Shown: positions 24,114 through 64,000 of the stretch, piece after piece
Layout: each line of letters begins with the position of its first letter
How positions within the stretch are numbered: position 1 is the stretch's first letter
Assembly (NCBI GenBank): GCA_013180625.2
Contig: SNVD02011092.1
Span: forward strand, 310,001-374,000
Reading direction: 5' to 3'
DNA: 64,000 nt
Source of the DNA: Boswellia sacra
Lineage: Eukaryota > Streptophyta > Magnoliopsida > Sapindales > Burseraceae
The notes under the pieces: model-generated
Seen by the model: the letters and a program-made list of their open reading frames with translations, nothing else
What the model was told of the DNA's origin: nothing
The model's database searches: none
Program-made: the position numbers and the translations under genes

Positions 24114-24118
24114 ATGAT

Positions 24119-27029: not shown

Positions 27030-27032
27030 ATT

Positions 27033-30435: not shown

Positions 30436-30440
30436 ATGAT

Positions 30441-33419: not shown

Positions 33420-34788
33420 TAATGAACACTTAAATATGTATGTTTAATAAGAGCTTAGTTCATCATATTGCATTAATAGTGTCATTAAATTTCTCAACTT
33501 AAGCATATTTGCGGTCTTTGCATCTTTGGAATTAACTTCCTCTTAATTTTGGTTTTATTATAGGTTTGGTAAAATGGGTATAACTTTCTATTTATAGATC
33601 AGAATGATGCAAATCTTAATGTTTTGGAAATCTGATTAAATTATCTACAAGATTACATTTCACAAGCATCATCAAATTCAGGCTCTTATTAGATAAAAAA
33701 TGGGCTTGAAAGGAACCCATCTGCAGATTCGGCCCAGCCTAACCATGCCTCAATATTTTGACCATATCTCTCAGAATACGTATTCAAATCGTATGAATCA
33801 AGATGTTCTAGAAAGCTGAGAGAAATATCTACAACTTTCATGAAGACATGTGATTAAAAATCACAATAATTCAAGGTCAAAATCAGTGGTCAAAGTCAGT
33901 TCACCTAATTACCCCAATTGTCAAAGTTGGTGCATCTAATATTTGACAATTATTCCTTTGTAATTTGACAAGTTTGCCCTTGAATGTATCTATAAATAGA
34001 GATGCCTTGTGACCCATTAGGGCATCTTGGCCTTGCTGGGATCTTGTATTGTTTTTCTCTCTTGTTTTTTAATGTTATTAATGAATTTCCTTTTTCTTGC
34101 ATTTTATGTTCTTTCTCTTATAATGTCTTGCTAATTTCTCTCTTGCAAAGGTGAAAGGGTGAAACCCTTGATATGAGAGTAAGGATTCTCTAACCCTTGG
34201 TATGTACTTAATAATCTTAATCTTGTATTGTTTATTTTATATGATTTATATTTATTTTCTTAATCAATCTTGATACCACTCATAAAGTGGAGGTCTTAAT
34301 CCATTGTCGATAATCCTTGGCACATCAAATGCTTGGATCCTTTCTAGATGTTGTATGGTTCTTTCTTACCGACACGAATTTAGTTAGGAACCTTGATTTG
34401 TTGTAGACATATGGAGATTGGCACATTGGATGCTTGAACCCATTTACCAGAAGTGGTATAAATATTGGTAATGAAGCAAATATAATTCATATAACTAAAT
34501 TGGGTTGTTTATCCTTATTTGAAATATCAAAGGTGGATCCCCTAACCTTAGCTCTCATTATTATTGTGTTAATTTCTCTTGTGTTATTCTCATTTTTATT
34601 TAAGAACTTGTTCTTTACTCATACTCGTTGATATTATCTTGCCATCTCTTGGAATCATCCATATCATATTTGCTTACTTATAGTTTGTAGCGCTTAAATT
34701 CCCTTCCTCGTGGATCGACCCCGGTCTTACCAGGTTTATTACTTCGACACTCCTATACTTGGGAGGCAATCCTTTTTTGGATATGTCA
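33420..34788 (+). mobile_element. 5' LTR of Athila-like element A
   Basis: 1369 bp starting TAATGAACACTTAAATATGT (TGATGAAC in sister copies) and ending TTTTTTGGATATGTCA. A TATA box TCTATAAATAGAG lies near 33990. It matches the LTR copies at 36096-37488 (reversed), 52563-54138 (reversed) and the LTR beginning at 63775. Confidence 0.9.
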
Positions 34789-34794
34789 AGTTTT

Positions 34795-34815
34795 TGGTGC
34801 CGTTGCCGGGGAAGG
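34795..34815 (+). promoter_or_regulatory. Primer-binding site of element A
   Basis: TGGTGCCGTTGCCGGGGAAG follows the LTR end by six bases. TGGCGCCGTTGCCGGGGA is the characteristic site of Athila/Tat gypsy elements; B retains the GCGCC form near 52538-52556. Confidence 0.85.
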
Positions 34816-34877: not shown

Positions 34878-37800
34878 GTGTTCATCTTTTCTTCTCTTTC
34901 CGTCTCTCTTCCTTGCATGAAAATTTGGTCACAAACATCTAGTGGTAGACTTGTTAGAAAAATATCATCTTCCTTAGAAAACATGGCCGACAATCATGTG
35001 AAAATATTCACGGATGAAGGGGACAACTCGCAACAAAATGATCAAAACCAACGAAGAACCCTCAGAGACTACATGAAACTAGTACACCATCTTGTGTAGT
35101 TTCTCCTCCAGATTCAATCCATTTCAATTTCAAACCAAGTTTTGTTCGACTTCTACCCACTTTTCATGGCCTTGACATGAAGAACCCATATTCGCACTTA
35201 AAACTCTTTGAAGATGTATACAGCTCCTACACTGACCCAAATTATGGCAGAAACACCATTAGATTAAAGCTTTTTCCTTTTTCTTTAAAAGATAAAGCTA
35301 GAACATGGCTACAAAATTTGAGGTCGAATTTCATCAGTTCATGGGATGAGATGAAACAACAATTTTTGAAAAAAATTTTTCCTGCCCATAGAACAAATTC
35401 TCTTAAAAGACAAATTTCTGATTTCTCTCAAAAACAAGGGGAAACCCTTTACCAATGTTGGGATAGGTATAAGGAACTACTTAATACCTGTCCTCACCAT
35501 GGTTTTGAAACTTGGAGAATAGTTGTACACTTCTATGAAGGGTTTACACCTCAAGATAGGCAACTAGTAGAATTAATGTGTAATGGAGAATTTAAAGAAA
35601 AAGACCCTGAGGAAGCACTTGACTTCCTAGATTCCTTGGCAGAAAAGGCACAAAATTAGGACACTGCTGGCACCTATGAGGTACTAAGCAAGGCCCAAAC
35701 CTCGACATCCAATAGAGGTATTTACAACCTTAGGGAAGACCATGACCTTCAAGCCAAATATGTATCCCTAGCTAGAAAAGTCGAGGCTTTAGAAATGAAA
35801 AAGAGTGGTCAATTAAATTCTATTCAAGAAAATGTCTGTATCATTTGTGATGACAATGACCAATCTACTGATGATTGTCCAACTTTGCCTGCCTTTAGGG
35901 AATGTCTCCATGAGCAAGTCAATGCCTTGAATACTTTCAAAAGGCCAAACCACAACCCAGACTCTCAAACCTACAATCCTGGTTGGAGAAATCATCCAAA
36001 TTTTAGTTGGAAAAATGATAATCATGCACAATCTTCACAAGTCCCTTTTCAAATACGACAAAATTTTCAAAATTCTCATGATCATACATATGCTCTGACA
36101 CATCCGAAAAAAGGATTGTCTCCCAAGTATAGGAGTGTCAAAGTAATAAACCCAGTAAGACCGGGGTCGATCCACGAGGAAGGGAATTTAAGCGCTACAA
36201 ATTATAAGCTAAACAATTATGATATGAATAATTCAAAGATGTGACAAGAAAATATCAACAATAGATAAGAATAATTAAAATACGCAAATCAAATGAATTA
36301 ACACACTAATAATGAGAGCTAAGGTTAGGGGATCCGCCCTTGATATTTCGAATAAGGATAAACGACCAATTTTAGTTATATGAGTTATATTTGCTTCGTT
36401 ACCAATATTTATACCACTTCTTGTAAATGGGTTCAAGCATCCAATGTGCCAATCACCGTATGTCTACAACAAATCAAGGTTCTGAACTAGATTTGTGTCG
36501 GTAAGGAAGAACCTTACGACATCTAGAAAGGATCCAAGCATTTGATGTGCCAAGGATTATCGACAATGGATCAAGACCTCCACTTTACGAGTGGTGTCAA
36601 GATTGATTAAGAAAATAAATATAAATCATATAAAATAACATAAGATTATGATTATTAAGCACATATTAAGGGTTAGAGAATCCTTACTCTCATATCAAGG
36701 GTTTCACCCTTTCACCTTAGTAAGAGAGAAATTAGAAAGACATTATAAGAGAAAGAGAACAAATTGCAAGAAAATGAGAATTCATTAATAACATTAAAAC
36801 ACAAGAGATAAACACAATATAAGATCCTAGCCAAGGCCAAGATATTCCAGGCAAGGCCAAGATGATCCAGCCAAGGCCAAGATGTTCCTAATGGGTCACA
36901 AGGCACCTCTATTTATAGATACATTCAGGGGCAAACTTGTCAAATTACAAAGGAATAATTGTCAAATATTAGATGCACCAACTTTGACAATTAGGGTAAT
37001 TAGGTGAGCCGAGTTTAACCACCAATTTTGACCTTGAATTATTGTGAATTTTAATCACATGTCTTCATGAAAGTAGTAGATATTTCTCTCAGATTTCTAG
37101 AACATCTTGATTCATACGATTTGGATACGTATTTTGAGAGATATGGTCAATATACGGAGGCATGGTCAGGTTGGACCGAGACTGTAGATGGGTTCACTTC
37201 CAGCCCAATTTTGGTCCACTAAGAGCCCGAATTTGATGATATTTGTGAAATGCAATCTTGTAGATAATTGAATTATCTTTCCAAGACATTAATATTTGCA
37301 TCATTCTGATCTATAAATAGAAAGTTATGCTCATTTTACCGAACATACATCAAAACCGAAATTAAGAGAAAGTTAATTCAAAGGATGTAAAGACTACAAA
37401 TATGCTTAAGTTAAGGAGTTTAATGACACTATTAATGCAATATGATGAATTAAACTCTTATTAAGCATACATATTTAAGTGTTCATCATGCTCCTCCTCC
37501 TAGGAATGACTTTGAAGAAACATTGCATTCATTCATTACAAAGCAAGAGACTTTTAATAGTCAAACTGCTCAAACATTAGCAAATTTGTCAGAAACTCTT
37601 GCGAAATTTGCATCTACATTTAGCATCCAAGAGAATGGAAAATTTCCTTCTCAAACATTGCAAAACCCCAAAGATCAATCTAACTTAAATGCATGGAGTT
37701 CAAATAACCATTATTTTGACCAAGCCAAGTCAGTCATGACCCTTCGCAATGGTAAGGTTGTTGAAAAACATATTCCTAACCCTTGTGAGAAAGAAGAAGA

Positions 37801-38060
37801 ATCGATCTCTAAAGGGCAGGAAGAGGTTGCCAAACCAACACCTAGCGAAGAGTAAACCAAATCCTCATCTGTGCCTCCATTTCCTCAAGCATTAACTACA
37901 CAAGAGAAGCCAACTCACAATTCTGAAATCTTTGAAATTTTCAAACAGGTAAAGGTCAACATTCCCTTTGCTTGATGTAATCAAACAGGTACCTTCTTAC
38001 GTAAAATTTTTGAAAGACTTGTGAACTGTGAAAAGAAAACTGAATGTGAAAAAGAACGTC
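34878..38060 (+). pseudogene. Gag of element A, broken and split by a solo LTR
   Basis: The retrotransposon gag domain is visible at 35177-35659: YSHLKLFEDVYSSYTD, LKDKARTWLQNL, FPAHRTNSLKRQISDF, GETLYQCWDRYKELLNTCPH. A zinc-finger-like CIICDDNDQSTDDCP follows at about 35838. Defects include a deletion causing early termination near 35080, a TAG in place of Trp at 35657-35659, the solo LTR at 36096-37488, a TAA at 37853-37855, and further stops near 38000-38070 before the protease. Gag would form the virus-like particle. In B the same residues are joined without the LTR. Confidence 0.85.
36096..37488 (-). mobile_element. Solo LTR inserted in gag of element A
   Basis: 1393 bp, reverse orientation, starting TGACACATCCGAAAAAAGGA and ending AAGTGTTCATCA. 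It is flanked by the perfect 5-bp duplication TGCTC (36091-36095 and 37489-37493). The empty site survives in element B at about 51238-51262. It belongs to the same LTR family as the host element's own LTRs and has a small local triplication of the AAGGCCAAGAT word near 36833-36885. Confidence 0.95.
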
Positions 38061-38105
38061 TTTCTAGTAGAGTAGGTAAGTGCTATTCTTCAAAATAATA
38101 ATACA

Positions 38106-38564
38106 GTGAAATATAAGGATCCAGGTTGTCCTACAATTTCATGTGTTATTGGAGACCATAAAATTGAACAAGCTTTACTTGATCTTGGTGCTATTGTGAA
38201 TTTGCTTCCATACTCGATTTTTCAAAAACTCAATCTAAGTGAGTTAAAACCGACTTCTGTGACTCTTTTGCTTGCTGATAGATCAATTAAAGTACCAAGA
38301 GGAGTAGTAGAAGATGTATTAGTTCAAGTCGATAAATTCATTTACCCAGTGGATTTTATCGTCTTGGACACACAACCAGTAGAAGTAAGCAATTCAATTC
38401 CTGTTATTTTAGGGCGTCCATTTCTAGCTACCTCTAATGCTTTGATTAATTGCAGGAATGGAGTCATGAACCTATCATTTGGGAACATGACATTGGAACT
38501 TAATGTTTTTAATATGTGCAAACAACCAAATGAAGAAGAAGATGAAATTGACGAGCCAATGTAA
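38106..38564 (+). CDS. Aspartic protease region of element A
   Basis: An open stretch of 152 codons with the Athila-type protease signature: CVIGDHKIEQALLDLGA followed by NLLPYSIFQKL, where DLGA stands for the usual D-S/T-G-A, and later VILGRPFLATSNALI. It would cleave the gag-pol polyprotein. It is part of a larger broken polyprotein; the ATG is simply the first Met in the open stretch. Confidence 0.8.
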   Translation: MKYKDPGCPTISCVIGDHKIEQALLDLGAIVNLLPYSIFQKLNLSELKPTSVTLLLADRSIKVPRGVVEDVLVQVDKFIYPVDFIVLDTQPVEVSNSIPVILGRPFLATSNALINCRNGVMNLSFGNMTLELNVFNMCKQPNEEEDEIDEPM

Positions 38565-38574
38565 TTGATCTATT

Positions 38575-39870
38575 GTGGAAGATCACATCCAAAAAGGGAG
38601 TTCTTCTGACCCTTTGGAAACTTGTCTAGTGAATTCATTAGAATCAAGTATGGAACTAGAGTCTGATCTTTCTTATATATGCTCTTTATTGGATTGTGCA
38701 CAGGTGATGGAAAAAGGCTCAAAATCAAGATTTGAAGAATTGGGGCAAATGAATGAAAGCAAGGAAGAGGAAGCTCCCAAGTTAGAATTGAAGCCCTTAC
38801 CTGAAGGACTGAAATATGCATATCTTGGGGAGAATCAGATATATCCGGTGGTAATTTCTTCATCCCTCACATGCGAGCAACAAGGTAAGTTGATAGAAGT
38901 GCTTAAAAGGCATAAAAATGCAATTGGTTGGACTTTAAAAGATATACAAGGCATTAACCCTTTAATTTGCACACATAGAATACATTTAGAGGAAAATGCC
39001 AAAACATCTCAACAACCTCAAAGAAGATTAAATCCACATATGAAAGAGGTTATTAGGGCTGAAGTTCTTAAACTACTTGATGTGGGAATTATCTACCCTA
39101 TTTCTGATAGCAAGTGGGTAAGCCCTACACAAGTAGTACCTAAGAAATCTGGCATTACAGTAGTTAAAAATGAAAAGGGGGAATCATTGCCAACCAGAGT
39201 CTCATCTAGTTGGAGGATGTGCATTCATTATAGAAAATTAAATGTTGTCACCAGAAAAGACCATTTTCTCTTACCATTTCTTGACCAAATTCTTGAAAGA
39301 GTAGCAGGGCACTCCTACTATTACTTTCTTGATGGATACTCAGGCTATTACCAAATTCCCATTGCACTTGAAGACCAAGAAAAGACCACATTCACGTGCC
39401 CCTTCGACACTTTTGCATTTAGGAGAATGCCTTTCGGACTTTGTAATGCCCCAGTCACTTTTCAAAGATGCATGTTAAGCATTTTCAGTGACATGGTTGA
39501 GCATTGTTTAGAAGTTTTCATGGATGATTTAACTGTCTTTGGAAACTCTTTTGATAATTGTCTTGAAAATTTAGAAAAAGTCCTAAAAAGGTGTGTGGAA
39601 AAAGGTCTTATTTTGAATTGGGAAAAATGCCATTATATGGTCACTTCGGGAATTGTCTTAGGCCATGTGGTGTCTTCTAAGGGAATTGAAGTTGACAAAG
39701 CAAAAATGAAATTAATTTCCCATTTGCCTCCACCAAAAACAGTCAAAGAGGTTCGTTCATTCTTAGGGCATGCTGGATTTTATAGGAGGTACATAAGAAA
39801 TTTTAGTGCTATATCTAAACCTCTTTGTAACCTCTTAATAAAAGACACTTCTTTTGAATGGACTCAATAA
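38575..39870 (+). CDS. Reverse transcriptase region of element A
   Basis: A 431-codon open segment with the gypsy RT landmarks: RRLNPHMKEVIRAEVLKLLD, WVSPTQVVPKKSG, WRMCIHYRKLN, YYYFLDGYSGYYQIPIA, FGLCNAPVTFQRCM, the active-site box VFMDDLTVFG (FMDD form), LGHVVSSKGIEVD and [16 protein letters not shown]. It ends at TAA (39868-39870) in FEWTQ*CQNAL, where Glu or Gln would be expected. The same stop is found in B. Confidence 0.9.
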   Translation: MEDHIQKGSSSDPLETCLVNSLESSMELESDLSYICSLLDCAQVMEKGSKSRFEELGQMNESKEEEAPKLELKPLPEGLKYAYLGENQIYPVVISSSLTCEQQGKLIEVLKRHKNAIGWTLKDIQGINPLICTHRIHLEENAKTSQQPQRRLNPHMKEVIRAEVLKLLDVGIIYPISDSKWVSPTQVVPKKSGITVVKNEKGESLPTRVSSSWRMCIHYRKLNVVTRKDHFLLPFLDQILERVAGHSYYYFLDGYSGYYQIPIALEDQEKTTFTCPFDTFAFRRMPFGLCNAPVTFQRCMLSIFSDMVEHCLEVFMDDLTVFGNSFDNCLENLEKVLKRCVEKGLILNWEKCHYMVTSGIVLGHVVSSKGIEVDKAKMKLISHLPPPKTVKEVRSFLGHAGFYRRYIRNFSAISKPLCNLLIKDTSFEWTQ

Positions 39871-40324
39871 TGTCAAAATGCCCTTGATAAATTTATTGGA
39901 CTTTTAACAACTGCTCCAATTATGCAATCTCCTGATTGGTCCTTGCCTTTTGAATTGATGTGTGATGCAAGTGACTATGCCATTGGTGCTATCTTAGGAC
40001 AAAGAAAAGAAGGTAAGCCTTATGTCATATACTATGCAAGTAGGACTTTAAATGATGCGCAAATGAATTACACAACAACTGAAAAAGAACTACGTACAGT
40101 AGTATTTGCATTGGACAAATTTCGTTCTTATTTGATTGATTCTCCCACAATTGTTTACACTGACCATGCAGCTGTGAGATATTTAATGTCTAAACAGGAT
40201 GCAAAACCTAGATTTATACGGTAGATCTTATTGCTCCAAGAATTCAACATCACAATAAAGGATAAGAAAGGAGCCGAAAATGTCGTTGCTGATCATCTTT
40301 CAAGACTAACGACAGAGACGTTAA
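39871..40324 (+). pseudogene. RNase H region of element A
   Basis: [40 protein letters not shown] and [12 protein letters not shown] carry the D-E-D type residues of RNase HI in gypsy elements. A TAG replaces Trp at 40222-40224 (FIR*ILLLQ; B has RWILLLQ) and the frame shifts near 40330. Confidence 0.85.
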
Positions 40325-41674
40325 TTGAAACTTTCACCTATCAATGATTCTTTTACTGATGAATTTTTATTTTCTATTGCTACTGTACCTTGGTTTGCTA
40401 ACATTGTAAATTTTCTTGCGACAGGGAAAATGCCACCTCATTGGAATGCTCAAGACAAAAGAACATTTTTAACCGAGGTGAAAAATTTTTACTGGGATGA
40501 CCCATATCTGTTCAAATATTATCCAGACCAAATAATGAGAAGATGTATACCCGACAATGAGGTAAGTAGTGTCCTTAAACTTTGTCATTTTCGAAGCCCA
40601 TGTGGAGGACATTTTTTATCTAGAAAAACAGCTGCTAAGATCTTACAATGTGGATTTTATTGGCCCACCTTATTTAAGGATGCACATGCATTTTGCAAAA
40701 CGTGTGAAAATTGTCAAAAATTGGGATCTATTTCAAAAAGAAACATGATGCCCTTAAATCCCATTCTTGTCGTTGAAATCTTTGACTGTTGGGGTATTGA
40801 TTTTATGGGACCTTTTCCACCGTCATTTGATTTTGTGTACATCCTTATTGCAGTAGACTATGTTTCAAAATGGGTCGAGGCAATTCCATGTCGAAACAAT
40901 GATCACAAACAGTTGTCAAATTCTTGAAAGAGAATATCTTGAGTAGATTTGGAATTCCTCGAGCCATTATTAGTGATGGAGGTACACATTTTTGTAACAA
41001 ACCATTTGAAACTTTAATGAAGAAATATGGAATAACCCATAAATTTCTACACCTTATCACCCACAAACAAGTGGACAAGTTGAATTAGCTAATAGGGAGA
41101 TAAAACAGATCTTAGAAAAAACGGTTAACCCAAATCGTAAAGATTGGTCTTTAAGACTTAATGATGCATTTTGGGCTTACCGAACTGCTTTTAAAACATC
41201 ATTGGGAATGTCTCCTTATAGATAGTTTATGGAAAACCTTGTCACTTGCCTGTGAAAATTGAGCATAAAGCTTATTGGGCCATTAAAACATTTAACACAA
41301 ACTTGAATGATGCTTGCAAGTTACGTAAACTCCAACTGAGTGAACTTGAAGAAATCAGGAACGAGGCTTATGAAAATTCCAAAATCTACAAAGAAAAAAT
41401 GAAGGTTTTTCATGACAAATTCATTGTTAGAAAATCTTTTGAACCTTCACAAAAAGTTCTTTTGTATAATTCAAGATTGCACTTGTTTCCTGGTAAACTT
41501 CGGTCTCGTTGGACGGGCCTTTCATTGTTAAAATGTTTTTTCCTCATGGGAGAGCTTGAAATCGAGAACCCAAAGAATGGTAATGTGTTTAAAGTTAATG
41601 GACAACGGTTAAAACCATTCTTTGAAAATTTTGACCAAAATGAAGAGTCCATTGCTTTAGTCGATCCTTTTTAA
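40325..41674 (+). pseudogene. Integrase of element A, frameshifted
   Basis: The zinc-binding part is visible ([32 protein letters not shown]), then the DDE core with [11 protein letters not shown]. One-base deletions relative to B near 40908 and 41043 and another near 41222 break the core. DGGTHFCNK and [20 protein letters not shown] follow in other frames. The C-terminal part at 41246-41674 is open ([30 protein letters not shown]). The enzyme would insert cDNA into the genome; this copy cannot. Confidence 0.85.
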
Positions 41675-41798
41675 GGATTGATATTTCCCGGTCAAAAGGC
41701 GGATACGGTACTCCGTGACTTTTAAAGTCGATTTTTCAGTTCCCTAAAAACTGTTGCTCACCCTGCATTCATTTTTCTTTCTTTTCTCGCATTTTCAC

Positions 41799-42344
41799 AT
41801 GGACACCATTCTCTCAAATCTGCACAAACATTTTCTCTCTCTTTCTCTAAATGATTTGCTTAAAATTTACAAAGCTCGTGCAGAAAGAGTAAGGATGTTG
41901 ATGCGTAAAGGTATGCTTGTTGAAGTAAGATGGTTAATCGAAGCGAAGGTTCGATTTTCTTATGAATTTTCAGATAATCTTGTTTCTCACATGCCAGGTA
42001 TGGGAAAAAGCTCTTACGCCAAAAAGCGAAGAGCGAAAAGGTTACAAGTTTGTCCCAAATGTGCAAGATGGACTTGTAACCAGCATTGCCGCTCTTTGGG
42101 ATATTTGTCTAATAATCGAGAGGATAAACTATAGTTCATCAAGAATGGACTGAGTAGGGAGTCTTTGGATGATATCCGAGTGACTCTTGAGACGCATTCT
42201 TGTGGACTTGTGCAGCGTGAAATTTTTAATTTGTGGACACAATTCCGAGATGAGCAGGAACGCTATAGTCTTGGGAAACTGACTCAAAACAACCCTGTTT
42301 GCCAGTTTATAAGAAAACTGGATGGGAAGCATATCCCCAACTCA
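41799..42344 (+). CDS. Cys-rich basic protein (viral NABP-like) with internal UAG
   Basis: The ORF from ATG 41799 (an upstream in-frame ATG at 41754 is possible) runs 111 codons to TAG at 42132-42134. Residues are mostly helical at first (LLKIYKARAERVRMLMRKGM, EVRWLIEAKV), then a Gly-x-Ser/Tyr-Ala/basic patch (GKSSYAKKRRAKR) and a cysteine cluster CPKCARWTCNQHC. From general knowledge this order, a basic YA-K/R-K/R-RRAK patch right before CxxC, resembles the small nucleic-acid-binding proteins of carla-like plant viruses. That is an inference needing an HMM search. After the UAG the same frame stays open for 69 more codons (FIKNGLSRESLDDI to KLDGKHIPNS, TAA at 42342-42344). It lies between integrase and LOG, the place of env-like genes in Athila elements. 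Copies exist in B and C. Confidence 0.55.
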
Positions 42345-42570
42345 TAAAAGGTGTTTAAGCCGTTTCTGGACGTAAAACCAGAGGAAGATGTGAGCCACAG
42401 TCACAACTACCTGTACATATGTATGCGTGCCATCATTTTTAAATTTTAATATCTCATAGCTGTCATTTTTGAATTTGTATCTTTTGTTTGACTTATGGTG
42501 TCTCATTTCATCATCTTTTTGAGTTTTTATGCATTATTGTCAACTTTTTCAACAAACAACCAAGCTACCT

Positions 42571-42652
42571 ATATAGATGTAATCATTAGCATACCTTTTT
42601 GCACTCGATAAATACCACATCTCTTGTTCTCTTCTTCAGACATAGTTAGAGA
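42571..42652 (+). promoter_or_regulatory. Possible splice acceptor or TATA box upstream of LOG
   Basis: A pyrimidine-rich run CTCTTGTTCTCTTCTTCAG, ending near 42638, stands about 25 nt before the LOG ATG and fits a 3' splice site that could yield a spliced LOG mRNA. CTATATAG (about 42571) and GATAAATA (about 42607) could instead act as TATA boxes. In B the acceptor AG is changed (TTCACAC). Inference only. Confidence 0.3.
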
Positions 42653-42663
42653 GTTGCATAAAC

Positions 42664-43314
42664 ATGGAGGGAACTTCAAAACGTCGAATCCAAAAGATAT
42701 GTGTATTCTATGGATCTCGACCTGGTAAAAGTGAAGAGTTTGTCAAGGCAGCAAATTATCTTGGTAGGCTACTGGCTGAAAGAAAGATTCATGTGGTTTA
42801 TGGGGGAGGTAGCCTCGGGTTAATGGGTTTTGTGTCAACAGCTGCACATGTAGGAGGTACTCAAGTTTTAGGAGTTATTCCTAAAGCTTTGGCTGTAGAA
42901 AGTATTGTTGGAAAAACGGTTGGGAAGGAGTTACAGGTCTCCTCTATGCATGAACGTATGGCACATATGCTCATCAATTCAGATGCCTTTATTGCTTTAC
43001 CAGGTGGCTTTGGTACTCTCGAAGAAATTTTTCAAATTGCCTCTTCGGCCCAACTGAATCTCCATCAAAAACCCATAGGTTTGTTGAATGTTAACAATTT
43101 CTTTGATCCTTTAATAATTTTTGTTGATGCAGCTGTGGAACAAAATTTTATCCCTCATTTGGTGAGACAGATCCTTTTTTCCGCCACTTCTGTTGGTGAG
43201 TTACTCGACAAATTACAAGCAGTTGAGTATGAACCTGACCCAGCTAGTACTCAAATTAATTGGTCAAGAGGGCAAAACAAAAAGTGCAAATTGGATCTGA
43301 ATCTCCGTTTGTAA
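42664..43314 (+). CDS. LOG: Intronless LOG (cytokinin riboside 5'-monophosphate phosphoribohydrolase) in element A
   Basis: 216 codons, complete and uninterrupted. LOG enzymes release active cytokinin bases from their riboside monophosphates in one step in the cytosol or nucleus. Landmarks: ICVFYGSRPG near residue 12, VVYGGGSLGLMG at 45-56, MHERMAHM with Arg98, and PGGFGTLEE with Glu121. Arg98 and Glu121 fall at the numbering used for the plant catalytic pair. Deviations from the usual RKAEMAR block (R-M-A-H-M) and from WAQL (S-A-Q-L here) could alter activity. Length equals plant LOGs, but those genes have several introns; this copy has none, so it came through RNA. The ATG context AAACATGG is good. 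It lies about 320 nt after the Cys-rich frame and belongs to the retrotransposon, not to a host locus. Confidence 0.9.
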   Translation: MEGTSKRRIQKICVFYGSRPGKSEEFVKAANYLGRLLAERKIHVVYGGGSLGLMGFVSTAAHVGGTQVLGVIPKALAVESIVGKTVGKELQVSSMHERMAHMLINSDAFIALPGGFGTLEEIFQIASSAQLNLHQKPIGLLNVNNFFDPLIIFVDAAVEQNFIPHLVRQILFSATSVGELLDKLQAVEYEPDPASTQINWSRGQNKKCKLDLNLRL

Positions 43315-44070
43315 TTTTTTTCTTTTCTTGTCTTTTATTTTTAGCATTTTATAAGTCTTTCAAGTCATCTCTCTTGAATAACAGAAGCTTCAGGTAATGT
43401 CTCCTATACTTTATCTCTCTACATTTAAACATTGAGGACAATGTTTCGTTTGATTGTGGGGAAGGATAGTAAACATAAGTATGTTTTGAATTTTCTTTTT
43501 CTTGAAAAAAAAAAAAGCGAGTTAGTAATTAGATTCAGAGTGCGGTGTAAGGAGTTCAAATCCTCTTGAGACGCATTCTGGGTCAGGAATGGCAGAGAAG
43601 GGAGGACCAGTTTGAACTCTTGAAACCCATTCTAACCAATTTGTCATTTTATTTTGATTTTGTGAACTCAATTTAGCTAACTTGATATTATTTAGTCTTG
43701 ATTTTTGAATTTTATAACAATGAGGTCTTATTCATTTCACTTTGAATTATTCAAATCTATGAACTCTCACAACCTTATCATTTAAAAATTGTGTGCTTAT
43801 GTACTCATTAAGCAAGTATTCATGAACCTTTCTTCACACACACACACATACCTTGATGCATGATTGTGGGTGGCGAAATGAAATGTTGTAATATTTGAGT
43901 TCTTTTGTTTTGTTTAGGATAACAACACAAAGGAAAGGGAAAGTTTAAAAAAAGAAAAAAAGAAAAAAAAAGTGAAAAAAAAAGAAAAAAAAAGAGAGAA
44001 AGCAATTGTGGATAAGTTTGGTCTCGTAGCCTCCTTAATTCGAGCAATTAAGCCCGAGGGGTGCCTCAAC
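43315..44070 (+). other. 3' untranslated region of element A
   Basis: Non-coding region. TTGAGGACAATGTTTCGTTT and TGTGGGGAAGG (43434-43467) are typical of the 3' part of Athila-like elements. A purine-rich A/G tract follows at 43940-44000. At 44048-44290 a ~170-bp unit containing CACCTAATACCCTAAG and GGGAG(C/T) words occurs twice. A 3' LTR should follow, but the palindrome centre replaces it. Confidence 0.7.
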
Positions 44071-44342
44071 ACCTAATACCCTAAGACCAACTGGTTTGGG
44101 AGCTATTGGCTCAAAGCTCGTTACATGGATTAAGGAGAAAGCTTAATGGGATTGAACATTATACTATTCACAAGTTGCAAAGCAAAAATAAAGCATCGGT
44201 AACCCGAGTCGTTAAGCTCGTAGGGGTGTCTTAACACCTAATACCCTAAGGCCAACTATTCTGGGAGTCATTAGCCTAAGGCTCGCTAAAGATGCGTTCC
44301 TCCAAAAAAAAAGGAAAGAAAGAAAAAAAAAAGAAGAAGAAA

Positions 44343-44394
<52 letters not shown>

Positions 44395-44666
44395 TTTCTT
44401 CTTCTTTTTTTTTTCTTTCTTTCCTTTTTTTTTGGAGGAACGCATCTTTAGCGAGCCTTAGGCTAATGACTCCCAGAATAGTTGGCCTTAGGGTATTAGG
44501 TGTTAAGACACCCCTACGAGCTTAACGACTCGGGTTACCGATGCTTTATTTTTGCTTTGCAACTTGTGAATAGTATAATGTTCAATCCCATTAAGCTTTC
44601 TCCTTAATCCATGTAACGAGCTTTGAGCCAATAGCTCCCAAACCAGTTGGTCTTAGGGTATTAGGT
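44071..44666. repeat. Perfect 596-bp palindrome core with AT run
   Basis: I compared the two halves base by base around the axis at 44368.5. They are identical from 44071 to 44666, including homopolymer lengths (A9/T9, A10/T10). The first mismatch is C44070 against A44667. The middle (44347-44390) is a pure AT-dinucleotide run that could extrude as a cruciform. Confidence 0.9.
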
Positions 44667-45423
44667 ATTGAGGCACCCCTCGGGCTTAATTGCTCGAATT
44701 AAGGAGGCTACGAGACCAAACTTATCCACAATTGCTTTCTCTCTTTTTTTTCACTTTTTTTTCTTTTTTTCTTTTTTCTTTTTTTTTTAAACACTTTCCC
44801 CTTCCTTTGTGTTGTTATCCTAAACAAAACAAAAGAACTCAAATATTACAACCTTTCATTTTGCCACCCACAATCATGCATCAAGGTATGTGTGTGTGTG
44901 TGAAGAAAGGTTCATGAATACTTGCTTAACGAGTACATAAGCACACAGTTTATTAAATGATAATGTTATGAGAGTTCATAGATTTGAATAATTCAAAGTG
45001 AAATGAATAAGACCTCATTGTTATAAAATTCAAAAATCAAGACTAAATAATATCAAGTTAGCTAAAATGAGTTCACAAAATCAAAATAAAATGACAAATT
45101 GATTATAATAGGTTTCAAGAGTTCAAACTGGTCCTCCTTACTCTGCCATTCCTGACCCAGAATGCGTTTGAAGAGGATTTGAACTCCTTACGCCGCACTC
45201 TGAATCTAATTACTAACTCGCTTTTTTTTTTTTCAAGAAAAAGAAAATTCAAAACATACTTATGTTTACTATCCTTCCCCACAATCAAACGAAACATTGT
45301 CCTCAATGTTTAAATGTAGAGAGATAAAGTATAGGAGACATTACCTGAAGCTTCTGTTATTCAAGAGAGATGACCTGAAAGACTTATAAAATGCTAAAAA
45401 TAAAAGACAAGAAAAGAAAAAAA
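44667..45423 (-). other. 3' untranslated region of element B
   Basis: Mirror of 43315-44070 with substitutions and small indels, including the pyrimidine tract at 44735-44790. No 3' LTR. Confidence 0.7.
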
Positions 45424-46074
45424 TTACAAACGGAGATTCAGATCCAATTTGCACTTTTTGTTTTGCCCTCTTGACCAATTAATTTAAGTACTAGCTGGGT
45501 CAGGTTCATACTCAACTGCTTGTAATTTGTCGAGTAACTCACCAGCAGAAGTGGCAGAAACAAGGATCTATCTCGCCGAATGAGGGATAAAATTTTGTTC
45601 CACAGCTGTATCAACAAAACTTATTAAAGGATCAAAGAAATTGTTAACATTCAACAAACCTATAGGTTTTTGATAGAGATTCAGTTGGGCCCAAGAGGCA
45701 ATTTGAAAAATTTCTTCGAGAGTACCAAAGCCACCTGGTAAAGCAATAAAAGCATATGAATTGATGAGCATATGTGCCATACGTTCATGCATAGAGGAGA
45801 CTTGTAACTCATGCCCAACCGTTTTTCTAACAATGCTTTCTATAGCCAAAGCTTTAGGAATAACTTCTAAAACTTGACTATCTCCTACGCGTGCAGCTCT
45901 TGACACACAACCCATTAACCCGAGGCTACCTCCCCCATAAACCACATGAATCTTTCTTTCAGCCAGTAGTCTACCAAGATAATTTGCTGCCTTGACAAAC
46001 TCTTCACTTTTACCCAGTCGTGATCCATAGAATACACATATCTTTTGGATTTGACGTTTTGAAGTTCCCTCCAT
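45424..46074 (-). pseudogene. LOG: LOG of element B, stopped at codon 169
   Basis: Same gene as 42664-43314 in reverse, intronless. It stays open from ATG (46074) for 168 codons, then a CAG to TAG change after FIPHSAR stops it. The remaining ~47 codons, to a TAA at 45426-45424, are recognisable with one more stop (PAST*INW). Arg98 and Glu121 are kept, and WAQL is retained where A has SAQL. About 17 residues differ from A, among them Asp107 to Tyr. The truncated protein would lack the last helices of the Rossmann-like fold. Confidence 0.9.
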
Positions 46075-46393
46075 GTTTATGCAACTCTCTAACTATGTGT
46101 GAAGAAGAGAACAAGAGATGTGGTATTTATGGAGTGCAAAAAGGTATGCTAATGATTACATCTATATATGTAGCTCGGTTGTTTGTTGAAAAAGTTGACA
46201 ATAATGCATAAAAACTCAAAAAAAGATGATGAAATGAGACACCATAAGTCAAACAAAAGATACAAATTCAAAAATGACAGCTATGAGATATTAAAATTTA
46301 AAAATGATGGCACGCATACATATGTACAGGTAGTTGTGACTGTGGCTCACATCTTCCTCTGGTTTTACGTCCAGAAACGGCTTAAACACCTTT

Positions 46394-46942
46394 CTATGAG
46401 TTGGGGATATGCTTCCCATCCAGTTTTCTTATAAACTGGCAAACAGGGTCGTTTTGAGTCAGATTCCCAAGACTATAGCGTTCCTGCTCATCTCGGAATT
46501 GTGTCCACAAATTAAAAATTTCACGCTGCACAAGTCCACAAGAATGCGTCTCAAGAGTCGCTCGGATATCATCCAAAGACTCCCTACTCAGTCCATTCTT
46601 GATGAACTATAGTTTATCCTCTCGATTATTAGACAAATATCCCAAGGAGCGGCAATGCTGGTTACAAGTCCATCTTGAACATCTGGGATAAACTTGTAAC
46701 CTTTTCGCTTTTTGCTTTTTGGCATAAGAGCTTTTTCCCATACCTGGCATGTGAGAAACAAGATTATCTGAAAATTCATAAGAAAATCAAACATTGGCTT
46801 CAATTAACCATCTTACTTCGACAGGCATACCCTTACGCATCAACATCCTTACTCTTTCTACGCGAGCTTTGTAAATTTTAAGCAAATCATTTGGAGGAAG
46901 AGAGGGAAAATGTTTGTGCAGATTTGAGAGAATGGTGTCCAT
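46394..46942 (-). pseudogene. Cys-rich NABP-like gene of element B
   Basis: Same as 41799-42344 in reverse. It starts MDTILSNLHKHFPSLPPNDL. Breaks: an Arg codon has become TGA (IEANV*FSYEF), and two of the cluster cysteines are changed (YPRCSRW). The UAG at the end of the first part (about 46609-46607) and the open frame behind it (FIKNGLSRESLDDI to KLDGKHIPNS) are kept. Confidence 0.7.
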
Positions 46943-47102
46943 GTGAAAATGCGAGAAAAGAAAGGAAAATGAATGCAAGGTGAGCAACAATTTTTAGGGA
47001 ACTGAAAAATCGACTTTAAAAGTCACGGAGTACCGTATCCGCCACTTGACCGGGAAATATCAATCCTTACAAATGATCGACTAAAGCAATGGACTCTTCA
47101 TT

Positions 47103-56701: not shown

Positions 56702-58422
56702 TGTGATGATTTTGATGAACGTGAGGTGAGAGAATATGTGAACTGGATGGAATCTTTTGGGCCCAACAATAGAAAATATTATGAACCTTTAGGTCAAAAA
56801 CTGACAAGGCTATTACCATCCATTGAAAAACCTCTGGTTCTTGAGCTTAAACAATTATCTAGTCATCTTAGATATGCATATTTAGGGGAGTCATTCACTT
56901 CAAGTGATTATCTCATCTGAGTTGTCTAGTGTAAAGGAAGAGAAGTTGTTGAGAGTATTAAGGAAGCATAAAGCATCCATAGAGTGGACATTATCTGATA
57001 TTAAAGGGATTAGCCCTTCCATGTGCATGCATAGAATCTTATTGGAAGATGGTAGCAAACCAACAGTAGATGTGCAAATGAGATTGAATCCAAGCATGAA
57101 AGAGGTAGTTCGAGCTGAGGTTCCTAAATGGCTTGATGCAGGAGTGATTTACCCAATTTTTGATAGCTCTTGGGTAAGTCCAGTTCAGGTGGTACCAAAG
57201 AAAGGAGGAATGATAGTTGTGAAGAATGAGAACAATGAGTTGATTCCCACTAGAAATGTCGCTGGGTGGCGTATTTGCATTGACCATAGGAAGCTAAACA
57301 AGGCTACTAGGAAATACCATTTCCCTTTACCTTTCATTGATCAAATGTTGGACCGTTTGGCTGGACATGAATATTATTACTTTTTGGATGGTTATTTTGG
57401 TTATAATCAAATTGTTATTGGTCCAGAGGATCAGGAAAAGACAACATTTACATGTCCCTACGGAATTTTTCCTTTAAGAGGATGCCTTTCGGGCTCTGTA
57501 ATGCCCCAACAACATTTCAAAGGTGCATGATGGCTACTTTCTCTGACATGGCAGAAAGAAGCATTGAGATTTTCGTGGATGATTTCTCTGTTTTTGGTAA
57601 AAATTTTGATCAATGCCTGGAAAATTTGAGGTTAGTTCTCATAAGATGTGCAGAAACTAACTTAGTGCTCAACTGGGAGAAGTGCTATTTCATGGTTGCA
57701 GAAGGGATTGTTTTAGGACATAGGATTTCTGCTTTAGGCATCGAAGTTAATCGAGCCAACATCAGTGAAGGGTGTATACAGTTTCCTTGGCCATGCAGGT
57801 TTCTACAGGAGGTTTATTAAAGATTTCTCAAAAATTTCAAAACCCCTTTCTAATTTGCCTGTGCAGAATAACACTTTTCTCTTAATGCAGATTGTTTGCA
57901 GGCCTTTACAACCTTGAAGGAGAAGCTTGTGTCAACACGAATTGTTGTAGCACAAGATTGAGAACTGCCATTTGAATTGATGTGTAATACAAGTGATTAT
58001 GCAGTGGGAGCAGTTTTAGGGTAGCGAATGAACAAGGTATTTCGTACTATTTATTATTCCAGCAGCCCTTAATGATGCTTAACTCAATTATGCCACCATT
58101 GAAAAAGAATTGCTCGCCATTGTGTTTGCTTTTGATAAAGTCCATACATATCTCATTGGTAGTAAGGTAATTGTTTACACCGATCATTCTACCATTAAAT
58201 ATCTTATGACCAAGAAGGATGCTAACCGAGACTCATTCGTTGGGTCTTACTCCTTGAAGAGTTTGATTTAGAGATCAGAGACAAAAAGGGCACTGAAAAC
58301 CTGGTGGCTGATCATCTGTCCAGGCTTGAAATACCAAAAGAATTTAGGTTGAACCAATCTCCCTTGATGATAACTTTCCTGATGAATAACTCTTTGCTTT
58401 ATCATCTAACTATACTCTTCCA
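56702..58422 (+). pseudogene. Reverse transcriptase and RNase H of element C
   Basis: RT in frames 56904-57530 and 57452-57820: RLNPSMKEVVRAEVPKWLDA, WRICIDHRKLN, YYYFLDGYFGYNQIVI, FGLCNAPTTFQRCM, IFVDDFSVFG (VDD form). A frameshift near 57470 and others in the connection region break it. RNase H follows in pieces ([40 protein letters not shown]) up to the D LTR insertion. Confidence 0.85.
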
Positions 58423-58424
58423 TG

Positions 58425-60280
58425 TGTTAGGCCTAAGGCTACATGATAATTTTGATGATAACAATACACATTTATTCATTGTGATTTACTAACATGTTTA
58501 TTTATGTACAAGAGTAATATCATTGAAATAATTGTAAAATCAAGAAAAGGCTTATTAAAATGAAGTGTTGAAGCTAAGGAGAAGACTACATATTAAAGGC
58601 ACCAAAGTTTAAGAACAAGGTTTGATTCAAGGAATGTGACACATGAGCAATGTTCAATCAATTGGTCATATATTTCTCTACAGATGTCCAAATAATGTGA
58701 TTATTAAGCCTTTGGAAAGCTTACTCAATTTATAACATTTCATATGTTTTAAAGAAATTCAAATTTCAAGTGCAAGGTTGTCCAAATCATCATGCAAGTT
58801 GAAAGACAAATGGAAGCAGCTGACATGAGCACCAAATACTCCTTTGGACATATCTTGAGCTAGAAAAATCAAAATGACTTGATTCTTATGGAATTGGAAA
58901 GAGGACGTAATGGAGAACATTTTATATGTTTTGAATAAATTCAAATTTCAAACATAAGGCCGACATAATTGACATGCAATTCGTAGACTGACACAGAGAA
59001 GAAAAATCAACTCATTTGAGCACCGAATGATGTTTTGTCCATATCTTGAGATAGAGATATCCAAATGCTTTGATTCTTAATTTTTTAAAAATCTCATTCA
59101 AATATTCCTTTTATGTTTTGAAGAAATTTAAATTTAAAACGGAAGGCTGACAGAATTATCATTCAATTCGGTGGACTGACACAAGGAAGAAAAATCAAGT
59201 CACATGAGCACCGAATAGTGTTTTGGTCATATCTTGAGATAGAGATCTCAAAATGACTTGATTCTTGATGCGTTGGAAATCTTATTCAATTATGAAGATC
59301 TTTTATGTTTTACAGATTTTGAAATTTCAAACGAAACATTGACAAAAATGGCAGACAAGATTTTGGTTTTATGGTGGGCAGAAAATTTGGAGTTGGTGTC
59401 TTCACTTGATTAAGTTCATCCCATTTGCCTATAAAAGGAGCCCTTCTCCCATGCATTCAGCAAGAAGAGAAGAGAAGCATCTATCAAGCAAAAAACAAGA
59501 GAAATATCAAGTCTAGAGAGCTTTTATATTCTTTATCTACTCTTTGAAGAGAGTTGTACTTTTGTTGTAAAAATTTTCTTTGTTCTTGTATTGTGGTGAG
59601 AGAGAGATCTTCTTGTAAAGGATAAAAGTTATCCTTGAGAGAACTCTTGGTGTATTGTTATCAAGAGTTGAAAGAAGTTGCCTTGGTGAAGGTTGTTCAT
59701 CAAGAAGAACTCTTGGTGTGGTGTTATCAAGGGTTGAAGGAAGTTGCCTTGGTGAGGTTGTTCATCAAGAAGAACTCTTGGTGTGGTGTTATCAAGAGTT
59801 GAAGGAAGTTGCCTTGGTGAGGTTGTTCATCAAGAAGAACTCTTGGTGTGGTGTTATCAAGAGTTGAAGGAAGTTGCCTTGGTGAGGTTGTTCATCAAGA
59901 AGAACTCTTGGTGTGGTGTTATCAAGAGTTGGAAGAAAAAGTCTTGGTGAGGTTGTTCATCAAGCAAGTTGTAAATATTTCTACAACTTAGTGGAAAGCT
60001 TAGCTCGTGGAGCTAGGAGCCCGTGGACGTAGGCAAGGTTTGCCGAACCATGTAAATTGAGTTTGCACTCTTTCTATCCCTATCTCTTTATATTTACTTG
60101 CACTTGTGATTGTTCGTTATTGCTATTCTCTTGATTGCATTCTATTTTCATCTTCTTCACCTTTATTCTCAAAGAAAGAGTTAAATAATTTTGATCTTTC
60201 AAGAAAAGTTTACTAAATCCGTTTTTATAAATAAAAACCCAATTCACCCCCCCTCTTGGGTTGCCATACCTGGGTCAACA
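58425..60280 (+). mobile_element. Solo LTR of family D inserted in element C
   Basis: 1856 bp starting TGTTAGGCCTAAGG and ending ACCTGGGTCAACA. Flanking CCATG (58420-58424) and CTATG (60281-60285) form a 5-bp TSD with one change. Joining the flanks at the protein level restores the expected run from LP to WYADFVNF in C. A TATA box CCTATAAAAGGAGCCC lies near 59431. Upstream of it about three 181-188-bp imperfect repeats (58775-59290) contain TGACATGAGCACC-like words. It is also present, truncated, at 54139. Confidence 0.85.
59640..59965 (+). repeat. 65-bp tandem array in D LTR
   Basis: Five units starting GAACTCTTGGTGTGGTGTTA at about 59640, 59706, 59771, 59836 and 59901. The frame through it encodes a repeat peptide only by chance. 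Confidence 0.9.
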
Positions 60281-61563
60281 CTATGGTATGCAGACTTTGT
60301 TAACTTTCTTACAGCATAAGTCATCTACCCAGATCTTTCTTACCAACAAAGGAAGAAGTTCTTCTCTGATATCAAGCACTACTATTGGGAGAATCCAATT
60401 CTTTACCAGCATTGTGTAGATTAAGTAATCAAGAAATGTGTTCCGGAGGAGGAGATGGAAGATATATTAAGGCACTGTCATACACTAGAATGTGGTGGCC
60501 ACTTTAGAGGACAACAAAGAGCTACTAAACTTCTTCAATCATGTTTTTATTAACCCACCTTGTTTAAAGATGTCACATGTTTGTTGCTAATTATGACAGG
60601 TGCCAAAGTATAGGAAACATATCGAGCAGAAATGAAATGCCACTGAGAAGCATCCTAAAGGTTGAGTTGTTTGATGTTTGGGCAATCGATTTCATGGGCC
60701 TATTTCCATCTTCCTATAACAACAAATTCATCCTCCTTGCTGTTGATTATGTGTCCAAGTGGGTTGAAGCAAGTGCAACTCAAACCAATAATGGTAGGGT
60801 GGTGCTAAGTTTCTTAAGGAAGAACATCTTTACACGGTTTGGCACTCCAAGGGCAATCATTAGTGATGAAGGCACACATTTTTCCAACAAACAGTTTGAA
60901 GCACTATTATGCAAATATGGAGTTAGCCATAGGAAAGCCCTTGCCTATCATCCTCATACAAATGGGCCGGCTGAAATTTCAAATAGAGAAGTAAAGATGA
61001 TTCTTGAGAAGACTGTGGCAAATTCACGTAAGGATTGGGCCACGAAGTTAGATGATGCTTTATAGGCTTATAGGACAGCTTTCAAAACACCTATAGGCAT
61101 GTCTCATTATAGGTTAGTTTATGGAAAAGCGTGTCATCTACCAGTTGAGCTGGAGCACCGTGCATATTGGGCCATGAAGACATTGAACATAGACTTGAGA
61201 AAGGTAGGAGAGAAAAGATTGCTACAATTAAACGAGATGGATGAGTTTTGCAATGAAGCTTGTGAGAATACAAAGATTTATAAGGAACGTACTAAGGCAC
61301 GGCATCACAAACACATCATTCAGAAAAGATTTTCACTTGGTCAACAAGTGCTTCTATACAACTCAAGGTTGAGATTATTTCCAGGAAAGCTTAAGTCAAA
61401 GTGGTCAGGCCCTTTCAAAGTTGTGCAAGTGTTTCCTTATGGAGCTATTGAAATTAGTCATCTAGAAAAGGGCTTATTCAAAGTTAATGGACAAAGATTG
61501 AAACCATACATGGCTACTAACTTTGATAATAACACAACCACCATTCTTCTTGATGAGCCTTAG
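60281..61563 (+). pseudogene. Integrase of element C
   Basis: Broken N-terminal part (RHCHTLECGGHFRGQQRATK), then an open DDE region at 60577-61065 ([50 protein letters not shown]) and C-terminus at 61099-61563 ([34 protein letters not shown]). TAG replaces Trp at 61063-61065. A stop replaces Trp near 60553. Confidence 0.85.
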
Positions 61564-62299: not shown

Positions 62300-62895
62300 A
62301 TGAACTCAAGATATTTTCGGTAATATCTTCACTCTTCTCTTTGTTACGGATAATGATAACATTCTTCACCAGCCCTTCACAAATGCTTCCCTTCACTCCC
62401 TTAAAATGCTCTGGTAAAAATCTATAAAGCACGATTTAATAGACTTAGGATGTTTATGATTAAGGAAATGCCTGTGGACATCCGCTGGTTAATCGAAGCT
62501 AAGATTAGATTAGCTGGCGAATCTGCAATTGATTTTATAGGATACATGCCTGGTCTAGGAAAAAGCACTCTTGCCAGAAAGTGACATGCTAAAAGGTTAT
62601 AAGTCTGTTATAGGTGTGCTAGATGGAATTGCATCCAAAATTACCGTTCTTTGGGATTTGTGTGTAAAAATAGGGAAGATAAGCTATAGTTCATCAAGGA
62701 TGGACTGAGTAAAGAGTCATTAGATAATATCGTACTGACTCTTGAGAATCATTCCTGTGGATTAGTGCAAAGAGTCATTAGACTATGTTGAACATCAACA
62801 ACATAGTCTAGGGAATCTGACTTTAAACAGCCTTGTTTGCTAGTTTGTAAGAAAACTGGATGGGAAGCAAATCCTCGACTCATAGAAGGCGTTTA
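62300..62895 (+). pseudogene. Decayed Cys-rich NABP-like gene of element C
   Basis: Clearly the same gene as 41799-42344, much diverged: MPVDIRWLIEAKIRLAGES, GYMPGLGKSTLARK, then TGA, HAKRL, TAA, VCYRCARWNC, FVCKNREDKL, TAG at about 62686-62688, then FIKDGLSKESLDNI and KLDGKQI further on. Stops and frameshifts abolish it. The UAG is at the same position as in A and B and the post-UAG residues are also conserved. It follows integrase and precedes LOG, as in A and B. Confidence 0.75.
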
Positions 62896-63576: not shown

Positions 63577-63774
63577 ATGGAGAGAACACCTGTTCGAAGA
63601 TTTCATAAGATCTGTGTGTTTTGAGATCTAGCCTAGAAGAGATGGTGAGTTTGTGAGAGCAACAGATCACTTAGGTAGGGTATTAGCTGTTAAGAACATA
63701 AATGTCATATACGAGGGGGTTTAGCAATGGGTTAATGGGGTGTGCATTTACAACTGCAATCTTAAGAGGGAGTC
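63577..63774 (+). pseudogene. Decayed LOG of element C, cut by an LTR
   Basis: The ATG at 63577 opens MERTPVRRFHKICVF then TGA. After a frameshift DGEFVRATDHLGRVLA and KNINVIYEG follow, then NGV where GLMG-V would stand. This equals residues 1 to about 60 of the LOG in element A. It ends abruptly where an Athila-like LTR begins. No intron is seen. It is the third LOG of the window and much more diverged than A and B are from each other. Confidence 0.75.
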
Positions 63775-64000
63775 TGATGAATACTTAAATATGTATGCTT
63801 AATGAGAGCTTAATTCATCATATTGTATTAATAGTGTCATTAAATTCCTCAATTTAATCATATTTGTAGTATTTACATCCTTGGAATTAACTTTCTCTTA
63901 ATTTCGGTTTTGATGTAGGTTAGGTAAAATGGGCATAACGTTCTATTTATAGATCAGAATGGTGCAAATCTTAATGTTTTGAAAAGCTGATTCAATTATC
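63775..64000 (+). mobile_element. Athila-like LTR, start only
   Basis: Begins TGATGAATACTTAAATATGT and matches the first 226 bp of the element A LTR. It continues beyond the window. It is inserted in the LOG remnant of element C. Confidence 0.85.

Follow-up and report, generated by a model that had tools for sequence, protein, structure and literature searches.

Genes for LOG, the cytokinin-activating phosphoribohydrolase, have a short history in plant retrotransposons: in 2011 Steinbauerova reportedly described two Athila-like elements with LOGL4-like open reading frames (ORFs). Gypsy consensus sequences with a LOG (YgdH) domain are in print from two Citrus species and from Populus (Alvarado-Marchena 2022, PMC9289625); that article, in the part available, names no cysteine-rich protein (CRP) partner, no change in the substrate pocket and no selection test on LOG. 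The same text states that extra ORFs of plant long terminal repeat (LTR) retrotransposons are mostly without known domains. Here we analyse 64,000 nucleotides of Boswellia sacra DNA (contig SNVD02011092.1, positions 310,001 to 374,000; the window, meaning this whole stretch). It holds members of what we read as a large Athila-like Ty3/gypsy lineage with the order integrase, CRP, LOG, polypurine tract and LTR, and we lean towards the view that CRP and LOG form a virus-like accessory module that conditions the host cell.

With the Citrus and Populus elements this lineage shares a LOG domain within a plant Ty3/gypsy element; the Boswellia genome, however, holds several families, with many copies. 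A preliminary description of this DNA had spoken of a new kind of cargo, which was too strong for LOG since the domain was already in print (PMC9289625). Two extra ORFs here have recognisable identities, and selection is clearly visible on one of them, across many copies within a single genome. A literature search turned up no description of a retrotransposon with a viral-type CRP, of a CRP-LOG pairing or of the pocket change set out below. A large survey took 250 codons as the minimum length for extra ORFs (PMC6317226, partial text), and both genes lie under that limit. Phalaenopsis Gypsy elements with an AlkB-like RNA demethylase (PMC9289625, partial text) are comparable in that a Gypsy element keeps an enzyme type also found in flexuous RNA viruses; enzyme and element are different, and activity was demonstrated in vitro there.

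The preliminary description had relied on three copies in the window, elements A, B and C, each said to carry CRP and then an intronless LOG after integrase. A and B proved to be the arms of one 13.8-kb palindrome; they are therefore not independent evidence and are counted once, and the reading of three independent copies was rejected. Order and orientation are indeed the same in A and B, but C keeps only ~67 broken LOG codons. Likewise, an intact intronless LOG, of 216 amino acids (aa), is present in A, but B has two in-frame stops and C a remnant. Matches of P0003 and P0005 to A and B by tblastn (E 2e-99 to 7e-102) are beyond chance; the match to C is weak (best E 1e-4), and the remnant, too short to be placed among the LOGs, ends where an A-family LTR begins (63777).

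Copies elsewhere in the 638.6-Mb host assembly carry more weight. From 14,285 first-look candidates the LOG query gave at least 150 scored places, and 123 of the 150 listed had no internal stop. A host LOG3-type query gave at least 150 places at 51-54% identity (144 of the 150 listed without a stop) and was swamped by retrotransposon LOG (retro-LOG) copies; the loci fetched with it constitute a second LOG family. The CRP query also found at least 150 scored places. A CRP match lay upstream on the same strand in 57 of the 60 LOG loci fetched, window copy included, three of these matches being under 60 aa at best (L006, L029 and L032); L013 and L056 had no CRP within the 1.5-kb flank, and L052 was cut by the contig end. 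The family LTR followed ~1.2-1.4 kb 3' of LOG in 29 of 30 family-1 loci, the exception being the window copy. These counts support the earlier proposal that the cassette is inherited as part of the element. A third CRP family had LOG downstream in all four loci fetched, two of them with stops. LOG copies differed by <1% in 51 of 1378 pairs and were identical in none, which makes some of them fairly recent.

Purifying selection appears to act on LOG. Intact ORFs were present in 53 of the 60 loci and fell into two protein families, of 28 and 25; exactly 216 aa was the length of 49 of the 53. Among the 1378 pairs, which are not independent and of which 19 with dS < 0.02 fell in no bin, the median ratio of nonsynonymous to synonymous substitution rates (dN/dS) was 0.12 in every dS bin from 0.02 to 0.4, 0.18 at dS 0.8-1.5 (670 pairs) and 0.15 at higher dS (30 pairs), the last two values being those for pairs from different families. 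Calculated as a ratio of sums, it was 0.152 in family 1, 0.138 in family 2 and 0.181 between families, the last value being the one that should be least touched by the choice of copies by score. The preliminary description had held that a dN/dS near 1 and no other family copies would tell against it; what we found was constraint on LOG and many host-genome copies.

For CRP, dN/dS was 0.24, 0.25 and 0.17 when L001, a related contig described below, was compared with A, B and C respectively, 0.31 for A against C, and 0.29-0.38 (medians) among 13 intact family-1 CRPs. Integrase gave 0.07-0.08 for L001 against A and B, with dS near saturation. Between A and B, that is after insertion, values were closer to neutral (LOG 0.68, CRP 0.52). 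Measured against L001, dS was lower in CRP (0.84, 41799-42344) than in integrase (1.9-2.5, 40192-41668, near saturation), which suggests extra constraint on CRP DNA or module exchange.

The LOG of A has both the PGGxGTxxE motif and the catalytic Arg and Glu; its numbering is that of the C. glutamicum LOG (CgLOG) minus one, an offset taken from the match to 5its. In CgLOG adenine is contacted by Met96, Lys100 and Glu121, the catalytic residues are Arg99 and Glu122, and the proposed prenyl site consists of Met96, His97, Lys100, Glu125 and Trp129 (PMC4979012, partial text). In CgLOGII, changing Arg155, Lys156, Thr175 or Glu178 to Ala completely abolished AMP hydrolysis (PMC5379747, partial text). 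We compared the 120 nearest relatives of the A LOG with 121 host LOGs, chosen by LOG3 similarity with LOG8 added and thus a part of the plant LOGs. Among the relatives the catalytic Arg was kept in 114, the catalytic Glu in 117 and both in 111, and the phosphate loop was likewise kept in nearly all aligned rows. The pocket Lys (CgLOG Lys100, A position 99) was kept in three (otherwise Met 45, Ile 43, Leu 28, Thr 1) and the pocket Glu (CgLOG Glu125, A position 124) in four (otherwise Gln 75, His 36, others 5); His97 was kept in 67 and Trp129 in 118. In contrast, all six residues were retained in 121/121 host LOGs, and both bacterial LOGs keep the pocket Lys and Glu. A and B have Met at the Lys site and Gln at the Glu site, A also having Ser at the Trp site, and the 53 intact own-genome copies have Met or Ile and Gln at these two sites. 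So the retro-LOG retains the phosphoribose and catalytic machinery and has a rebuilt base end. The change may reflect a narrower cytokinin enzyme, use of another nucleotide, or binding without turnover. Since the pocket Lys and Glu are lost in 117 and 116 of the 120 relatives, cytokinin activation is not to be assumed, and the label 'cytokinin-activating' in the preliminary description was an assumption that is now weakened.

With plant LOG enzymes (LOG1/3/8, type Ia) the retro-LOG has the PGGxGTxEE motif, the catalytic Arg and Glu and the length in common; it differs in being intronless and located in a retrotransposon, in its pocket and in forming a separate clade. A 70-row tree set 49 retro-type LOGs, that of the window among them, off from 19 host LOGs by a branch with 100/98 support. 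The host rows were LOG8 and LOG1/3-like sequences, of which one was from the conifer Cryptomeria, host sampling being confined to these types. The stem of the retro-type family is long (0.71), apart from the host LOGs. Named members, which may or may not each lie in an element, come from Reevesia, Diplodiscus, Populus, Melia and Paulownia. Between the hosts and the rest stand three proteins of Xanthoceras, with Lys and Glu both retained, and the LOG portion of a CRP-containing Acer gene model, a short piece covering 40% of the columns with the pocket outside the covered part. From these positions, association with CRP may predate the pocket change.

The CRP family protein, of about 182 aa, contains the basic stretch KKRRAKR and then a C4 zinc finger; KKRRAKR followed by C-x2-C...C...C is present in most rows of alignment A1. 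In a Pfam scan of 12 CRP-family proteins, 11 scored at or above the curated cut-off for Carla_C4 (PF01623) or Viral_NABP (PF05515), namely all ten full-length proteins and one of two mixed gene models (the exception being P0238), and no other Pfam family passed among the 12. Viral_NABP matched up to 117 residues (P0165 and P0187) and Carla_C4 27-40. The CRP ORF of A as first listed is truncated, relatives typically having 182 aa; it scored above the cut-off with Carla_C4 (1.2e-06) and below it with Viral_NABP (3.2e-04). This likeness to virus proteins goes beyond what the preliminary description had seen. The profile match, the basic stretch followed by a C4 zinc finger and the character of a small 3'-proximal gene are held in common with the Cys-rich nucleic acid-binding proteins of the filamentous plant RNA viruses, namely carlaviruses and related Betaflexiviridae/Alphaflexiviridae; in contrast to these, the retrotransposon CRP sits in an integrated element, is about 182 aa long and has a conserved C-terminal half of its own. 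A basic motif resembling a nuclear localization signal, followed by a zinc finger, is a feature of viral CRPs, which are described as silencing suppressors, that of chrysanthemum virus B also as a hyperplasia-inducing transcription factor (PMC12172455, partial text). By analogy, the retrotransposon CRP might suppress silencing or act as a transcription factor.

The tblastn matches of P0122 to the CRPs of A, B and C (Table 1) are beyond chance. All three share a TAG at codon 112 (42132-42134, 46607-46609 and 62687-62689), and at four of the remaining five stops in their CRPs L001 has a CGA or CAA codon. The stops plausibly reflect decay of methylated DNA, CAG to TAG being a change in CHG context open to recurrent deamination. 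A functional shared stop at codon 112 was rejected, since relatives have Gln there and deamination is simpler, and since L001 and 24 of the 57 CRP-matched loci are full-length without a stop. CRP relatives (120 listed of 123) come from named hosts including Xanthoceras, Populus, Acer, Citrus, Striga and Orobanche, and scans of viral contigs for CRP, LOG and reverse transcriptase (RT) found no relative. The CRP tree is mostly unresolved (48 of 92 inner branches open), and CRP and LOG identity tables for six elements neither support nor contradict co-descent. Three size coincidences (8723, 2128 and 905 bp) between short contigs in the LOG (59 of 120 rows) and CRP match lists are suggestive only.

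L001 is a 3.3-kb contig filed in a Candidatus Nomurabacteria genome bin; from its plant-like content we infer contamination of the public bacterial genome record. Its open frame contains the end of RNase H and integrase, its CRP is intact and colinear with A (75% DNA identity), and a ATTGAGGACAATG/polypurine signal lies 230 bp after the CRP stop. No LOG was found in L001, the 40 best matches of the 240 LOG and CRP proteins being all CRP and the ORF list containing no LOG. A CRP without LOG indicates that LOG is separable from CRP; as one contig, L001 is compatible with either gain or loss of LOG.

Comparison of A with L001 also revealed two conserved non-coding blocks (Table 1). A translated trace of the block upstream of CRP (PVKWRITVLRD) occurs at the N-terminus of P0171. 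In the block after CRP, a 64-nt core is 87.5% identical and the next stretch 49%; for comparison, 60-nt coding windows average 75%, with a maximum of 90%. This block is nearly identical in C, L001 and sampled copies of three families of the host genome, and its hairpin-like core CTNG-ACGTAAAA-CNAG was present in 59 of 65 loci. RNAalifold gave one compensatory pair of 20, and single-strand folding was only mildly better than for shuffled sequences (z -1.2 to -1.4); RNA structure is not established by these results, and an Rfam search of the conserved blocks returned no family. The position of the block points to a possible role in CRP or LOG expression.

We propose that CRP and the LOG-derived protein would act together as a virus-like module conditioning the host cell. 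With its basic nuclear-signal-like stretch and C4 zinc finger, CRP would bind nucleic acid and either weaken RNA silencing or redirect transcription. The phosphoribohydrolase derived from LOG would have a nucleotide 5'-monophosphate as its substrate: cytokinin nucleotides, held in a pocket that is narrower and more hydrophobic, in which case it would promote division, or else some other nucleotide. CRP would have come first or been more widely kept, LOG being a later or losable addition. Geminivirus AC2/C2 provides a viral precedent for raising cytokinin and, combining silencing suppression with cytokinin effects, an analogy for the module (PMC8062710, partial text); there a single protein inhibits adenosine kinase, whereas here two separate genes have predicted activities. 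Should CRP prove able to suppress silencing, a retrotransposon would be carrying a suppressor with relatives among virus proteins. The altered pocket raises a clean biochemical question, which substrate the retro-LOG cleaves, and is also a caution not to take such genes for ordinary host LOGs: retro-clade entries of Populus and Melia, which may or may not lie in elements, are named cytokinin phosphoribohydrolases. Relative to the preliminary description the account is broader and backed by selection, the copy number is corrected, and cytokinin is one of several possibilities.

Several observations weigh against the proposed module. A related enzyme cannot hydrolyse AMP without the Lys that is lost here, so a dead or binding-only protein is possible. 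L001, though an element of the same kind, reaches its polypurine signal without LOG. CRP is full-length and clean in 24 of its 57 matches and is often broken beside an intact LOG. The copies were chosen by LOG protein score, which biases dN down and favours intact LOG. Finally, the homology of CRP to viral proteins rests on Pfam profiles over 27-117 residues. It is rather unlikely, to our mind, that CRP is not of viral descent but an unrelated zinc-finger protein (for instance nucleocapsid-like or a host gene) with a similar basic, Cys-rich motif, or that viruses took it from plants; the 27-40 residues matched by Carla_C4 would be compatible with this, but two viral models pass the cut-off, Viral_NABP over up to 117 residues, and no other family does so in the 12 proteins scanned.

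The nature of LOG allows more alternatives. It could be a normal cytokinin-activating enzyme that raises cytokinin, division and meristem activity and helps insertions reach the germline, a possibility that we take seriously yet consider doubtful. Family membership, retention of both catalytic residues in 111/120 relatives, low dN/dS and the viral precedent for raising cytokinin fit this explanation, and Met/Ile/Leu and Gln/His replacements could still admit a prenyl group. However, Lys99 and Glu124 survive in 3 and 4 of 120 relatives when 121/121 host LOGs and both bacterial LOGs keep both, change of the Lys to Ala abolishes AMP hydrolysis by CgLOGII (PMC5379747, partial text), and the long stem (0.71) separates the family from host LOGs. 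We regard as unlikely a variant without cytokinin, in which a virus-derived CRP of silencing-suppressor type is joined by a LOG of changed substrate that acts on another nucleotide, perhaps a plant immune signal, so that the module disarms host defence. Still less probable is an inactive or binding-only protein serving as a nucleotide sponge or as a structural partner to either CRP or gag. In its favour are the 117/120 relatives that lack the essential base-pocket Lys and the existence of SLOG-fold proteins that serve as nucleotide sensors, but nearly every row keeps the phosphate loop together with the catalytic Arg and Glu, which a dead enzyme need not do. Passive hitchhiking, in which a host LOG transcript was captured once and merely copied along, is hardly credible and was rejected. 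An intronless LOG is what RNA-borne capture predicts, and L001 indicates that some relatives manage without it; this explanation is contradicted by dN/dS of 0.12-0.18, by the 49 of 53 intact ORFs of exactly 216 aa, and by catalytic residues retained at 57-71% identity in aligned relatives. The proposed module keeps our preference.

Table 1. Features of elements A, B and C in the window
Feature	Position	Strand	Basis
A, 5' LTR	33420..34788	+	repeat pairs 33422-34788 / 37486-36096 and 33422-34297 / 54136-53261
A, primer binding site-like TGGTGCCGTTGCCGGGGA, directly after LTR	34795..34812	+	pattern match
A, gag fragment	35177..35659	+	Retrotrans_gag 2.8e-20
Nested solo LTR inside A, flanked by TGCTC duplication (5 bp); B has none	36096..37488	-	repeat comparison
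A, aspartic protease	38106..38564	+	Asp_protease_2 1.8e-05
A, RT	38575..39870	+	RVT_1 2.4e-28
A, RNase H	39922..40224	+	RT_RNaseH 4.2e-31
A, integrase, split over several frames	40325..41674	+	Integrase_H2C2 7.5e-12; colinear with open L001 integrase frame
A, conserved non-coding block between integrase and CRP	41685..41745	+	84.5% vs L001 over 58 nt; flanking 30-nt windows 43-63%
A, CRP, 182-codon gene, one internal TAG (codon 112)	41799..42347	+	tblastn P0122 5e-85
A, conserved non-coding block directly 3' of CRP stop, possible small hairpins	42348..42420	+	L001 counterpart 2348-2420
A, LOG, intact, intronless, 216 aa, pocket-altered	42664..43314	+	Lysine_decarbox 9.4e-36; 2a33 6.8e-56
A, ATTGAGGACAATG motif and polypurine tract-like GGGGAAGGA, near 43460	43431..43469	+	sequence
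A, 3' untranslated region to palindrome centre; 3' LTR missing in window copy	43470..44370	+	family-1 loci comparison
B, LOG, two in-frame stops	45424..46074	-	tblastn
B, CRP, two in-frame stops	46397..46942	-	tblastn P0122 1e-84
C, RT, RNase H and integrase remnants, interrupted	56984..61563	+	repeat comparison and domain scans
C, CRP remnant, five in-frame stops	62375..62882	+	tblastn P0122 2e-57
C, LOG remnant, ATG at 63577, ~67 codons, stops and frame changes	63577..63776	+	tblastn
A-family LTR start, inserted in C LOG	63777..64000	+	repeat comparison

Pfam domain scans placed gag, protease, RT, RNase H and integrase in gypsy order. A second RNase H (aRH) marks Tat (PMC6317226, partial text); none was found in the pieces scanned, which included the 496-aa L001 frame and the A pol as separate fragments. 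The extra same-sense ORFs sit between pol and the 3' LTR, as in the Athila lineage of Ty3/gypsy. We take the name Athila from the look of the sequence and from prior reports, and the primer binding site-like TGGTGCCGTTGCCGGGGA is presumably of tRNA-Asp type. The LTR starts with TAATGAAC in A and with TGATGAACAC in B and in the nested copy, and the ATTGAGGACAATG motif recurs 3' of LOG in other copies as it does 3' of CRP in L001.

The inverted repeat (37488-51253 against itself) has 96.5% identity and its centre near 44370, within an (AT)n run shortly before the expected start of the 3' LTR. The outer parts of the two element arms (LTR and gag) are only 91-93% identical, and the inner arms look as if homogenised. 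By eye, no target-site duplication was visible at the outer ends. Element C, at about 56.9-63.8 kb, is related but decayed, with a DNA identity of 65-69% across pol and of 74% across the CRP region. Antisense to gag, an Rfam match to snoR71 (35397-35505, minus strand; 41.7 bits, cut-off 40) is, we guess, due to chance or to a family partly built on retroelement sequence. The window also has a 2.9-kb direct repeat (24118-27031 and 27495-30437, 95% identity, spacing 463 bp). A 0.97-kb repeat with internal tandem units of about 65 bp (54390-55354 and 59315-60280, 91% identity) has one copy beside the B LTR and the other inside C.

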